A DNA stretch of 39,092 nucleotides from a virus. The position numbers and the translations under genes were made by a program. Positions 6,229 through 33,622 of the stretch are shown in pieces. Numbering within the stretch: the stretch's first letter is position 1; each line of letters begins with the position of its first letter. Under the pieces are notes generated by a model. The model was not told where the DNA came from and did not search any database. It saw only the letters and a program-made list of their open reading frames with translations. Where the stretch lies: the IMG/VR virus record IMGVR_UViG_3300025073_000104, positions 1 to 39,092 of that record, one strand, 5' to 3'.

Positions 6229-6309
6229 TCACAAATCTGTTAAAAAGTCAACCTTGCAATTATGCGCTTGGTCGCAATATGCTCCTGCTTGTTCGGGTGT
6301 GAATTTCAT
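6229..6309 (-). CDS. Possible 26-aa peptide
   Basis: The frame MKFTPEQAGAYCDQAHNCK (26 codons in all) opens with an ATG that overlaps the stop of the upstream 237-aa gene as ATGA, as in confirmed neighbours. Length alone gives little support, so the overlap is the only argument. It may be a leader peptide, a real microprotein, or chance. Confidence 0.35.
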   Translation of the reverse strand: MKFTPEQAGAYCDQAHNCKVDFLTDL

Positions 6310-7019
6310 AGGGTAGGTGTTTTTGATAATTTAGCTTCACCGACTACTCCTATAATCTCATCGAATGTTAAATCGCAATACTCGTCTTCCCAATCTCCAA
6401 TAAAATACAACCTATCACATTCATTTATCCATCCAAATAAAATAGGGTCTTTCATATTCCTCTTTTCATCTGGCGACATCTGTTGTTTTTTCTCTAGCTT
6501 TTTCTCGATTGCGTTATTGTAGTAGTGATAAATTACAAACCCGTCAAATACATCTTCAACAGCTTTCTTCTTCGCTAATACATCCTTCGGTATAACTCTC
6601 GTGTAGTCTTTTAATTTCGTATCCGATATATGTCCATCTCTTATCTTATTCTTGACTCTTGATAAAACCTCCCTGTCAACATAGTACCTAATACCTTTTG
6701 CGTATATCGCACTTTCTTTTACTTCTCTCGCCAGTTCTAGCAATAGCTTGTTGCCAAGTGCCTCTTGTCCGTTTTCCACGGCATTGTTAAACGCCTTCTC
6801 CAGTCTGTCTAATCTTCTATCAAGAATCACCCGTTCCATTATATTGAATTTCTTTTTGATATACCTAAAGACAAGTGACACATCGTGTCCTGTAGTCTTT
6901 TTAACGGTTGCATTGACGGTTATACCGTTTGTTGATGCCGAACCGTCAATAGTTATAAGACTGTTGATGTCAAAAAAAGTTCCGCCAGTAGTTGTTGATG
7001 AATAAAATGATTGAGGCAT
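6306..7019 (-). CDS. Hypothetical protein with beta-rich N-terminus and helical body
   Basis: 237 aa. Residues 1-50 are polar and beta-prone (TTTGGTFFDINSLITIDGSA and so on), unlike the rest. From Met61 (MERVILDRRLDRLEKAFNNA) the protein is highly charged and helical, possibly coiled coil, up to a C-terminal acidic segment. The leader TTTAATTAAAATAAT before ATG matches those of the genes starting at 9601 and 10611, which supports the long start. The change in composition near residue 60 hints at a fusion or an internal start. No family is recognised. Confidence 0.6.
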   Translation of the reverse strand: MPQSFYSSTTTGGTFFDINSLITIDGSASTNGITVNATVKKTTGHDVSLVFRYIKKKFNIMERVILDRRLDRLEKAFNNAVENGQEALGNKLLLELAREVKESAIYAKGIRYYVDREVLSRVKNKIRDGHISDTKLKDYTRVIPKDVLAKKKAVEDVFDGFVIYHYYNNAIEKKLEKKQQMSPDEKRNMKDPILFGWINECDRLYFIGDWEDEYCDLTFDEIIGVVGEAKLSKTPTL

Positions 7020-8232: not shown

Positions 8233-8415
8233 TTATTCTATCCAGCTTAAACATCCTTCTGTCTGGCATTTCCCGTCCGTATGGTCGTTATACCCTATCG
8301 CACATGTGTAATTAAGTACCCCTTTGCATTTAGGGCATACAATACTACCAGCACCTTTTTTTTCGGCTCGGCATTGCATTATTGCTTCGATTGTCCTTTG
8401 AACATCGTGGGTCAT
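8233..8415 (-). CDS. Small zinc-ribbon protein (60 aa)
   Basis: It has an N-terminal helix (MTHDVQRTIEAIMQCRAEKK) followed by IVCPKCKGVLNYTCAIGYND and KCQTEGC, i.e. CxxC...C...CxxxxC, a zinc ribbon. It is the first gene after the structured RNA region and its leader (AACAAAAAAGACAGT) directly follows the RNA's last stem, so its translation could depend on that RNA's fold. Confidence 0.65.
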   Translation of the reverse strand: MTHDVQRTIEAIMQCRAEKKGAGSIVCPKCKGVLNYTCAIGYNDHTDGKCQTEGCLSWIE

Positions 8416-8442
8416 ACTGTCTTTTTTGTTAAGTTATATTTG

Positions 8443-8690
8443 AATCCTTGTAGCGAGCGGATAGGTACCCGTGATAGAAGTTACTTTATCTAACACCATT
8501 ATCCGCTCAGTACAAGATTTCAAGTACCGATAGAGGGTAACGGGTAATCCTTGCTAGCAGGTCGCCGCACAGGGCTTTCGCCCCTCCCCTCTATCTTGGC
8601 TGGTTTTACCGTTGCGTTTCCGCCTTGGATTGTCCAGCCTCGAACGCGCAACTTGTGGAGAGTAGCCCCGCAAATCGAGCGTCAAATTGT
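8443..8690 (-). ncRNA. Unclassified structured RNA with kissing-loop and two GAAA tetraloops
   Basis: The 282 nt between tad2 and the next gene has no good ORF and folds well on the minus strand. Stem A is GGCTGG (8639-8634) with CCAGCC (8603-8598). It encloses the hairpin GCG-GAAA-CGC (8623-8614). Stem B is GATAGAGGG (8595-8587) with CCCTCTATC (8537-8529) and encloses GGGC-GAAA-GCCC (8583-8572). The loop segment AACGGTAA in stem A (8613-8606) can pair with TTACCCGTT in stem B (8547-8539), 8 bp with one bulged C. A third long stem joins 8519-8500 to 8463-8443 (core GAGCGGATA / TATCCGCTC). The loops are GNRA only on this strand, which sets the sense. I cannot match it to a known ribozyme, riboswitch, group I intron, RNase P or tmRNA. 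Confidence 0.65.
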
Positions 8691-8697
8691 GAAAGAG

Positions 8698-8952
8698 CTA
8701 CTCTACCAACGTCCAATCATAAGTCAATAAATCCGTTTGGCTCGCCAACCAAGGTACATTCTTGCCATCAACAGTAGTGATGTAGATGTACGGGAGTGTC
8801 ATCTTGGAATTTTCGTCTGGTACTTGGAGTGTCAATTTTTGACCCTTTCCATTCCAGCCGATTCTGGAAACCGACTTGCCATCTTGGAGTGCTCCGAGTG
8901 CAATCCCGAATCCGAATGGCGACTGCGTGTCATACTGTTTGACTTCATCCAT
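8698..8952 (-). CDS. tad2: Tad2-like anti-Thoeris protein (DUF2829)
   Basis: 84 aa, the full usual length of the DUF2829/Tad2 domain. The family signatures are present in order: GFGIALGALQDGKSVSRIGW (F..AL..L..GK.V.R.GW), then NGKGQKLTL, PYIYITTVDGKNVPWLASQT, and TDLLTYDWTLVE at the C-terminus. Known Tad2 proteins are small sponges that bind the cyclic ADP-ribose-type signal made by Thoeris ThsB and so block ThsA; some members also bind other immune nucleotides. Assignment to the family is firm. Which ligand this one binds cannot be told from sequence. It is followed by the structured RNA and preceded by the repeat protein, in a likely anti-defence/accessory stretch. Confidence 0.88.
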   Translation of the reverse strand: MDEVKQYDTQSPFGFGIALGALQDGKSVSRIGWNGKGQKLTLQVPDENSKMTLPYIYITTVDGKNVPWLASQTDLLTYDWTLVE

Positions 8953-8962
8953 ACGATTTTAA

Positions 8963-9601
8963 TTAAGAAATAAGTTTATCTGCTTCTGCTTTGAGTTCGG
9001 CTATCTTCTTTAGAATTTCAGCCTTGCGAGTTGCGTTCTCGTTGTTCGCCTTAATTCCCGTGTGCCATTCAAATAATTCGGCATTAAACTCGGGTAGGCT
9101 TCTAATGTAATCTATCAATTCTTGTGGCATACCTTCCCAGATATTCTGTTTCTTTTTTATGTCACTCGCGTCAACCTTACTCCATTCCGAGCCAGCCTTA
9201 AGATATAACTCGAAAGCATTATTGGCTCTTGGCTTCCAGCCACCTTGTTTTTTATGGATACTACTTAAGACTTCGTCAAATCTATCTCCCGAAACTTCAA
9301 CACCGAATATAGTCGGCTTACCTTCTTTTTTTGGGGCAAAAATAGCCCTGTAAACTCCTTTAGATTCTTTCACGCCATAGCTGTAGGACACGCCATCGCT
9401 GTAGGACACGCCATCGCTGGAGTACACGCCATCGCTGGAGTACACGCCATCGCTGTAGGACACGCCATAGCTGTAGGACACGCCATCGCTGGAGTACACG
9501 CCATCGCTGTAGGACACGCCATCGCTGTAGGACACGCCATCGCTGGAGGACACGCCATAGCTGGAGGACACGCCATTCGAGTTGTTGATTGAGTCAGTCA
9601 T
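8963..9601 (-). CDS. Hexapeptide-repeat protein with C-terminal globular domain
   Basis: 212 aa. Residues about 9-84 are a run of six-residue repeats of the form GV-S/Y-S/Y-S-D/Y, 12 or so copies, with Gly-Val fixed. A regular six-residue period with small and beta-branched residues suggests a beta-solenoid. The rest (from GVYRAIFAPKKEGKPTIFGV) is a mixed alpha/beta domain containing GGWKPRANNAFELYLKAGSEW and a C-terminal helix (AEILKKIAELKAEADKLI). I do not recognise the globular domain. The leader TTTAACAAAATAAT before ATG matches other genes here. It lies 10 nt upstream of tad2 in the same operon. Confidence 0.7.
   Translation of the reverse strand: MTDSINNSNGVSSSYGVSSSDGVSYSDGVSYSDGVYSSDGVSYSYGVSYSDGVYSSDGVYSSDGVSYSDGVSYSYGVKESKGVYRAIFAPKKEGKPTIFGVEVSGDRFDEVLSSIHKKQGGWKPRANNAFELYLKAGSEWSKVDASDIKKKQNIWEGMPQELIDYIRSLPEFNAELFEWHTGIKANNENATRKAEILKKIAELKAEADKLIS
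9373..9570 (-). repeat. 18-bp in-frame tandem repeat, 11 units
   Basis: Eleven contiguous 18-bp units (198 bp) of the form CGCCATMGCTGKAGKACA on the plus strand. Differences are confined to three positions, each changing an amino acid among Tyr, Ser and Asp. There are no spacers, so it is not a CRISPR array. Being a multiple of three, unit gain or loss would keep the reading frame. Confidence 0.95.
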
Positions 9602-10010: not shown

Positions 10011-10611
10011 CTTGTAAGGTTTTAAGAAATTGATTGAGGTGATTTATTGTCGTTAATGCTGCATGGAAAGCCTGTTCGTCTAATTCGCTATATCTTGTAG
10101 CCATTGCGTGTACTGCATCCAATTCCTCCTGTATACGCTTAATCGTGTCGGATTTGCCAGCCTTCTCTCCATTCGCAAACGCCTTGTCGTACAAGTCGCC
10201 TAGTCCGTACTTGTCTTCTGGTGTTGCGAGTTTCTTTTGCGCATACATACCATTCGGCAAAGTTTGCGTTCCAAGTATAAATTTCCTACGCCACCGTTCA
10301 CATTTAGCGCCGTCTACCATAAGCGTCTTGTCAAATTCCTTCGACCCTTCAAGCAATTCCTTTTCTTGTTTCGTAAGCCTTGTTCGCTTGTCATTCTTCT
10401 TAAGTTTCTTCTCTAGCCATTTTGAATCCTTATCGGTAATGCGTATCGGATCGGTAGGAAGTCTTAATTTCGCACTGGTAACAATATTACAAGGCTGTCC
10501 ACATTCATTGCATTCATAGTGCATTGTACAGACCCTATCCTTTTCGTGGAAGTCCCCACTCCCCACCGTCTTAACGGGCGTGCTACAGCATTGGCTTAAT
10601 TGTTTATTCAT
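9982..10611 (-). CDS. Zinc-ribbon phage protein with helical C-terminal domain
   Basis: 209 aa. The N-terminus (MNKQLSQCCSTPVKTVGSGD, then YECNECGQPCNIV) is a CC...CxxCGxPC zinc ribbon common in small proteins of phage early operons. A basic helical segment follows (KWLEKKLKKNDKRTRLTKQE), then an alpha-helical domain to the end (AFHAALTTINHLNQFLKTLQ). The C-terminal 29 nt overlap the next gene. The leader is TTTAATTAAATAAT. Function unknown; nucleic-acid binding is plausible. Confidence 0.65.
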   Translation of the reverse strand: MNKQLSQCCSTPVKTVGSGDFHEKDRVCTMHYECNECGQPCNIVTSAKLRLPTDPIRITDKDSKWLEKKLKKNDKRTRLTKQEKELLEGSKEFDKTLMVDGAKCERWRRKFILGTQTLPNGMYAQKKLATPEDKYGLGDLYDKAFANGEKAGKSDTIKRIQEELDAVHAMATRYSELDEQAFHAALTTINHLNQFLKTLQDETSELHTL

Positions 10612-12732: not shown

Positions 12733-13590
12733 TTAAAAGTTAGGATCTACGGCGAGGTCTGCAAAATCTTTTGTTGGCACTTCTTTGACTTCCGGCTTTT
12801 CGATGTCTTCAAACCTATCATCATCAAGCGTAAGTGCATCTCTATATTCCGAGCTTATCGAAAGCCACTTGCTCAACCTTCGGAAGACAGTCTTCTTTGC
12901 CATTTCGTTAAAGTCGGTATTCCAAGGTGAGTAACTTGAGCCTGCCGCCTTCGACCTTGCTCTGACTTTAACCACTTCATCTTCAGTCATCACCTCGGCT
13001 TTTTCGCTTCCATCTTTGAATCTTACTATCGCATAAACCGCATACATCTTGCCTCGTGGCTTTTTGAAGTTGATTTTATGCTTTTTGATTTCTCCTTTGT
13101 CGTACTCAAACTCATCCTCGTTACAGATTATGTCGGCATGGATGTTGCTTACACTCCCAGAGCGCATAACTAATTCCACCAAGCCTTTATAATCTACTAT
13201 CAACTGCACTTGGTCTTTATACGGAATTAAATGAGCGTTCCTTCCATCCGGCTCTAATCCTAATTGACTCAAATTAAGAAGTGCATTGAATAGAGAAGCC
13301 TGCTTGCATTGACCGAGCGCCGGAGTCTTCTGTAACGCTGTAATTGCGATTCGGATAAATCTATCCGGTGTAAGATGCTTCGGCAAGGTCTTTGCGATTT
13401 GAGCTTTGAAAGATTCGCCTTCAATCAAATCTCGGACTGTGGGCTGTACGATTACTACCTTTTGTTTTACAGGTGCGATTGCCTGTTTTAGCGGTACTGC
13501 TGTTGTTACCTTCTTGACTGGCTCTGCCTGTTTGACTGGTGCTACCGTTGGCTTGTCATCGAACGGTAACGGCAACTCTTTGGTTGTCAT
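12733..13590 (-). CDS. recT: RecT-family single-strand annealing protein
   Basis: 285 aa, close to the usual RecT length. A Pro/Lys/Val-rich N-terminal tail (residues 1-50) precedes the RecT core. The core carries LPKHLTPDRFIRIAITALQK, CKQASLFNALLNLSQLGLEP, DGRNAHLIPYKDQVQLIVDY, KGLVELVMRSG and SPWNTDFNEMAKKTVFRRLS, all hallmark segments. RecT coats single strands and anneals complementary DNA in double-strand break repair and replication. The RecB/Cas4-like exonuclease lies immediately upstream in the same operon, forming the standard two-component system. Confidence 0.95.
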   Translation of the reverse strand: MTTKELPLPFDDKPTVAPVKQAEPVKKVTTAVPLKQAIAPVKQKVVIVQPTVRDLIEGESFKAQIAKTLPKHLTPDRFIRIAITALQKTPALGQCKQASLFNALLNLSQLGLEPDGRNAHLIPYKDQVQLIVDYKGLVELVMRSGSVSNIHADIICNEDEFEYDKGEIKKHKINFKKPRGKMYAVYAIVRFKDGSEKAEVMTEDEVVKVRARSKAAGSSYSPWNTDFNEMAKKTVFRRLSKWLSISSEYRDALTLDDDRFEDIEKPEVKEVPTKDFADLAVDPNF

Positions 13591-28339: not shown

Positions 28340-28597
28340 ATGAAAGCACAAAAACCGTTGCTCAAATATGAGCTAACGAATGAGATGGTCGGGTTTCTCC
28401 TCGAATGTTTAAATGTAACAAGCGTAAGGGGGACAGCCGGCGCAACTCAAATGTTGAATACGGTTTCAATACTTCGCAGTCCTTTGAACTTAAAGGAGTT
28501 ACAAGCGGTCGAAGCTGAAGACGCGGCACTTGAAAACAAGGCGAAAGAAATTCCTACAGAAGGCGACAAGCCATCTGTAGAAAAGGTTAAGAAATAG
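28340..28597 (+). CDS. Small hypothetical protein of the head operon
   Basis: 85 aa, helical with Lys/Glu-rich C-terminus (LKELQAVEAEDAALENKAKE, ending VEKVKK). No family is recognised. It is followed by the hairpin at 28607-28632. Confidence 0.6.
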   Translation: MKAQKPLLKYELTNEMVGFLLECLNVTSVRGTAGATQMLNTVSILRSPLNLKELQAVEAEDAALENKAKEIPTEGDKPSVEKVKK

Positions 28598-33146: not shown

Positions 33147-33622
33147 ATGAAATTATAGACTCACTTATCACAATCTTTACGACAGGCTTTACCACTATTC
33201 CTTTCACGACTTACTTTAAAGGCAAGCAGGACGCTATAGCAGAGGCGGATATGCCAATGCTACAAGTCTATCCTAAAGCAACTCGTCAAAAGAGAAGCGG
33301 TACAGTCCGTGATCAGGCGGAGTACGACATCGTGGTTGAGGTCGTAATCAATGCAAAGACATATTGGGATATGTCGGCTGGTCAAGGTTCGCAATTAGAT
33401 GTATTGGAGAAATTAGTTGACTTAGTTGAAGAAAGAGAAAGCGATGGTGATGCGAAAGCTCCGACAGTATTCGGAATCTTAAATAACAATCTTACGGCAA
33501 GCTCAAAGGTTTTATACATAGACAACTTGAATGTTGAATACAGTACATACCTAGATGAAGGAGGCAAGAAAGGCAGAGCAACAGTTACCTTCACGGCTTA
33601 CGACCGCCCAAATCGAACATAG
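33143..33622 (+). CDS. Tail terminator-like protein
   Basis: 159 aa. A tail-terminator-type layout: helix MNEIIDSLITIFTTGFTTIP, then a beta sheet (AEYDIVVEVVINAKTYWDMS), a helix (LDVLEKLVDLVEERES) and a final beta strand (KKGRATVTFTAYDRPN). Position between gpG-like protein and tail tube agrees. The start overlaps the previous stop by ATGA. No sequence family is certain. Confidence 0.65.
   Translation: MNEIIDSLITIFTTGFTTIPFTTYFKGKQDAIAEADMPMLQVYPKATRQKRSGTVRDQAEYDIVVEVVINAKTYWDMSAGQGSQLDVLEKLVDLVEERESDGDAKAPTVFGILNNNLTASSKVLYIDNLNVEYSTYLDEGGKKGRATVTFTAYDRPNRT

Follow-up and report, generated by a model that had tools for sequence, protein, structure and literature searches.

A probable structured intercistronic RNA in a changing early locus of a small phage group, with a tRNA-like head in one relative

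A folded gap in the early operon

What occupies the unusually structured gap that follows tad2 in this phage, and does it belong with its anti-defense neighbor? The DNA analyzed here (the window) is an IMG/VR virus record of 39,092 bases, whose early genes lie on the minus strand from ~18.2 kb down to 5 kb. Within this early operon, a 282-nt gap (8416 to 8697, −; z = −5.2) separates a tad2-like gene (8698 to 8952, −; PF11195, E = 2e-19), which sits upstream of the RNA in an exchangeable slot, from a small cysteine-rich, or zinc, ORF directly downstream (8233 to 8415, −). The tad2 gene is a Thoeris inhibitor gene. A sequence-only reading had described the gap as noncoding, densely folded, and outside any known RNA class. 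No conserved ORF was found across 8416 to 8697, and Rfam returned no gathering-level match in the window nor, at E < 10, any RNA family from bacteria or phages, so the first and last of these descriptions held. The window's terminase gave only matches below 60% identity to catalogued phages (best listed, about 24 to 27%); its sole relative found in the genome collection, at 45%, is in a Candidatus Uhrbacteria bin, a hint that Patescibacteria are a possible host for the phage group. We found no paper joining Tad2 with a noncoding RNA, nor one on structured RNAs of Patescibacteria phages.

The dense folding was likewise borne out. The minus strand of 8430 to 8711 folds at −104.9 kcal/mol, compared with a shuffled mean of −79.7 ± 4.9 (z = −5.19). 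In a 120-nt scan of both strands, 3 of the 11 segments that reached z < −3.5, out of 1300 scored, fall in 8401 to 8700, and among 280-nt segments of the early operon, scanned on the minus strand only, this region scored −4.0 and −4.5 (next best, −2.1). The strongest single folding scores of the window are elsewhere, at 33181 to 33300 (−), antisense inside a late gene (z = −6.5), and at 28381 to 28500 (+), across the ORF at 28340 to 28597 (z = −5.3). Because the plus strand of the region folds equally well (z = −5.36), folding energy alone cannot pick the strand. A structured RNA of no known class, read in the direction of the surrounding genes, is nevertheless supported: the strong fold is joined by sequence constraint among homologues and, in a relative, by a tRNA-like domain of matching orientation.

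Hairpin modules and their conservation

Pattern scans and a scan with neighboring proteins yielded a homologue set of three distinct sequences: the window, with an identical copy of its RNA in L053 (IMG/VR 3300025000_000633); L055 (3300027419_000078); and L037/L054 (3300025117_000015). Scans of viral contigs with three DNA patterns, tad2, terminase, and three neighboring or slot proteins gave no fourth homologue, and across 55 loci the known three alone rose above noise with model R1. The same model found nothing in 287 genomes of the terminase relative's phylum, a weak result from a run without a positive control. BLASTN of the window RNA against 50,697 phages gave no match; the L055 RNA, searched against these phages and also against plasmids, returned nothing beyond T-arm-like pieces. 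Several candidates were set aside: L065 and L066 matched by chance within repetitive coding sequence, L081 carries the left edge of the slot and lacks the RNA, and four short BLAST matches to hairpin B in genomes of the terminase relative's phylum all fell in coding sequence.

The RNA opens with a conserved 5′ block, TAGCTCTTTCACAATTTGACGCTCGATTTGCGGGGCT (8664 to 8700, −), which starts with the stop codon of the upstream gene, tad2 in this case, as its first three bases. The block is 97% identical over 38 nt in L037 and nearly the same in L055. Its length and near-invariance, and the tad2 gene next to it, recall RNA anti-CRISPRs (Racr) and solitary repeat units (PMC10651486), which likewise are small phage RNAs near an anti-defense gene with a constant block of ~36 nt. 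That the 36-nt block mimics a host CRISPR repeat is nonetheless scarcely credible: each phage has the block only once, tad2 does not always adjoin it, and the block pattern (with N{2,6} in its variable middle) had no match at all in the 84,980-genome collection searched.

Three hairpin modules follow. Hairpin A (8642 to 8684, −), predicted in the window and in L055, has an outer stem GACGC/GCGUU and an inner stem UUUGYGGGG/CUCCACAA. Hairpin B (8598 to 8639, −; GGCUGG...GCG-GAAA-CGC...CCAGCC) has an inner pair probability of 0.94 and differs from L055 at 1 of 42 nt. Hairpin C (8527 to 8595, −; GAUAGAGGG/CCCUCUAUC) is confined to the window and the identical L053, and its interior has two isoenergetic folds. 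One of these is the hairpin at 8583 to 8572, with a probability of 0.32; thus, of the two GAAA hairpins proposed earlier, the one in hairpin B stands and the second is not supported. An alternation of hairpin A with a helix of 11 bp that overlaps the tad2 stop codon (8704 to 8694 with 8669 to 8659) was considered and rejected: among the three homologues it gained one covarying pair, the one double change of the alternative helix, a level reached by 236 of 500 shuffles. With two close homologues to compare, stems A and B show no double changes.

The sequence-only reading had placed most weight on an 8-bp kissing loop (8613 to 8606 with 8547 to 8539), which we reject. The pairing includes a bulge, and each shuffled version of the region holds ~7 complementary matches of 8 bp with a one-base bulge; the 3′ partner is largely paired in the ensemble, and the whole module that holds it is missing from L055. 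This bears on a comparison with GOLLD and ROOL, large ornate phage RNAs that are likewise phage encoded, highly structured, hairpin rich, and of unknown function, with a conserved and a variable part. Kissing contacts build the cages of GOLLD and ROOL, whereas the pairing proposed here is at chance level; GOLLD is often >800 nt, compared with ~280 nt for the window RNA; and the GOLLD and ROOL models gave no match even at E < 10 (window) or E < 5 (L055). On size, on Rfam score, and for want of supported kissing contacts, the RNA is excluded from both families.

L055 matches the window at 88.6% over 105 nt (hairpins A and B) and again in an exact 32-nt 3′ block. In the conserved RNA blocks, ~5 of 145 positions (~3%, counted by eye on the alignments) differ between window and L055, compared with 23 of 84 four-fold sites (27%) in three downstream genes. 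This low divergence points to constraint on the RNA, although recent local exchange or recombination could give the same low divergence as selection; the left edge of the gene slot is likewise conserved, with 1 of 11 four-fold sites differing. In L037, nothing is kept but the 38-nt 5′ block and, beyond a middle that differs, 24 nt of the 3′ end. It has lost hairpin B, the greater part of A, and, in the long stem described below, the 5′ arm; its fold is ordinary (z = −1.3), so the complete structure is not required in every phage. To judge from these alignments, few parts of this changing locus are as constant as the RNA ends.

Stem D and the tRNA-like head

The 3′ part of the window RNA is a long stem, D (8440 to 8523, −), of ~21 bp (UUGAA-UCUUGUA-GAGCGGAUA / UAUCCGCUC-UACAAGG-UUCAA) with a short hairpin cap. 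Its pair probabilities are mostly >0.9. Stem D is kept in L055, where the single paired change is A-U to G-U. There, a tRNA cloverleaf sits on the stem in the sense of the operon, scoring 28.7 bits against RF00005 (E = 0.0005), just below the gathering score of 29. The cloverleaf has an 8-bp acceptor (GGUACUCG/CGGGUACC), a 4-bp D-arm (UAGC/GCUA) with a 7-nt loop bearing GG, and a 5-bp T-arm with a 7-nt loop (GCAGG-UUCGAUU-CCUGU). It thus shares the order of acceptor, D-arm, and T-arm and the 7-nt T-loop with tRNA (RF00005) and with viral and tmRNA-type tRNA-like structures. Unlike a tRNA, it has at the anticodon position a 4-bp arm with a 3-nt loop instead of a 7-nt anticodon loop, it is rejected by ARAGORN, and it is mounted on a 21-bp stem; judged by the anticodon loop, the L055 head is not a tRNA. 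Among 380 genomes searched in the terminase relative's phylum, 163 have tRNA genes, of several kinds, that match its 3′ half. L055 also has a 14-nt perfect palindrome, GCAATGCGCATTGC (10363 to 10378), which is inserted in the 5′ strand of stem D immediately beneath the cloverleaf and is absent from the window.

The window has lost most of this head, and the RF00005 covariance model found no match in it. It lacks the 5′ acceptor strand along with the anticodon arm and T-arm, and it retains stem D and an orphan 3′ acceptor strand, CGGGUACC (8464 to 8471, −), the latter within the 32-nt exact match to L055 10444 to 10475. A D-arm relic has a p of about 0.02 to 0.04. These remnants are no more than suggestive of deletion from a tRNA-like ancestor; in the simplest order, the head would have been lost in the window lineage and more lost in L037.

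Such a series could also be the decaying remnant of a phage tRNA gene cluster, from which tRNA genes and processing stems were deleted piecewise. The window and L037 do resemble successive deletions, and L055 has one tRNA-like cloverleaf and possibly a second, at 10475 to 10567. Right behind the first, this possible element has a textbook T-arm (GUAGG-UUCAAGC-CCUAC) and acceptor-like ends (GGUC.../GACC), with a long arm replacing the D and anticodon arms; Rfam did not recognize it, and ARAGORN accepted neither it nor the first as a tRNA gene. We consider cluster decay doubtful: hairpins A, B, and C have no tRNA similarity even at E < 10, the change at 1 of 42 sites in hairpin B relative to L055 is too slow for decay, and the L055 cloverleaf retains all its stems.

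Alternatively, the stems might serve the message itself, as RNase barriers or cleavage sites that keep apart and stabilize the mRNAs of adjacent early genes without a product of their own. The region does lie between cistrons of one operon, starting at a stop codon, it contains a long near-perfect stem, and a search turned up no convincing promoter or terminator belonging to it. Such an intercistronic element is unlikely, as it leaves unexplained both why the loops and linkers of the 5′ block and hairpin B hardly vary and why L055 has a complete cloverleaf.

The exchangeable slot and the favored reading

An anti-defense role for the RNA had been suggested from tad2 next door. The gene that precedes the RNA is, however, a 71-aa ORF in L037 and a 118-aa ORF in L055, for neither of which a family was found. 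That suggestion is not supported, and tad2 is an exchangeable neighbor: nothing ties the RNA to Tad2 or Thoeris beyond a common changing gene slot. The swap is exact at start and stop codons: the phages share the flanking sequence as far as the ATG and again once the stop codon is reached. The slot's conserved left edge (8953 to 9051, −) comprises the 3′ end of a gene for 212 aa (..NNENATRKAEILKKIAELKAEADKLIS*) plus the stretch leading to the next ATG; it is 96% identical to L055 over 99 nt and is conserved in L037. The tail NNENATRKAEILKKIAELKAEADKLIS is nearly letter-identical in otherwise different proteins, of 212 aa in the window and 79 aa in L055, and from this distribution appears to be a swapped C-terminal module; another protein, at L081 4001 to 4087, ends with a similar tail (69% identical). 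Downstream of the RNA, genes differ too: the window has small ORFs, and L055 has the possible second tRNA-like element.

These codon-exact swaps between the 99-nt left block and the 38-nt 5′ block raise the prospect that the blocks and hairpins are a DNA exchange boundary, flanking a cargo slot of anti-defense and other small genes swapped by recombination and possibly acting through folded single strands, like integron attC sites. A RecT is encoded at 12733 to 13590, and both strands fold equally well. Even so, we hold this to be quite improbable. Hairpins are unneeded for ordinary homologous recombination, the cloverleaf is an RNA fold, and stem D ends in UUGAA/UUCAA, with the attC core sites RYYYAAC and GTTRRRY absent. 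No integrase or transposase reached the Pfam cutoff among the window proteins scanned. A 237-aa protein at 6306 to 7019 (−) matches PHROG 10081, labeled “transposase” (E = 4e-21), a name that Pfam, NCBIfam, and PDB did not support.

The reading we favor, tentatively and at somewhat short of an even chance, is that this part of the early transcript undergoes processing and survives as a small RNA or stabilizing spacer, its head having once met tRNA-handling enzymes. A structured noncoding RNA would thus ride in the early transcript of a small related phage group, built from exchangeable hairpin modules A, B, and C and stem D, with a head that was formerly a cloverleaf without an anticodon loop. 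Excision from the polycistronic mRNA may use stem D as an RNase III-type substrate and the cloverleaf as an RNase P-type substrate, and the excised RNA would then persist, either as a small RNA or as a stabilizing spacer between cistrons. The tRNA-like head may originally have engaged tRNA-handling enzymes, before its loss in the window's phage. Within this reading, the identity of the element is firmer than the mechanism; it draws on features read from the aligned loci, namely, the fold, conservation of the 5′ block and of A, B, and D, the L055 head and its truncated counterpart in the window, and gene swaps on both sides. The element is probably noncoding, a small, fast-changing phage RNA in no catalogued family. 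A more specific role, as a tRNA mimic without an anticodon, raised on a long stem as a decoy for tRNA-cutting or tRNA-sensing defenses, would have the window's phage lose the mimic and carry tad2 in the same exchangeable locus; we regard it as a long shot.

If real and expressed, this RNA would add a compact class of phage RNAs, with a head that resembles a tRNA but lacks an anticodon, to be placed beside GOLLD and ROOL. One account describes these as often encoded near tRNAs, with the GOLLD linker sometimes holding tRNAs (PMC12286853), and their link to tRNAs is itself unexplained. The three-phage series (full head, shortened head, and ends only) could show which part carries function. A slot that swaps small accessory genes such as tad2 is, moreover, a place to seek new anti-defense genes.
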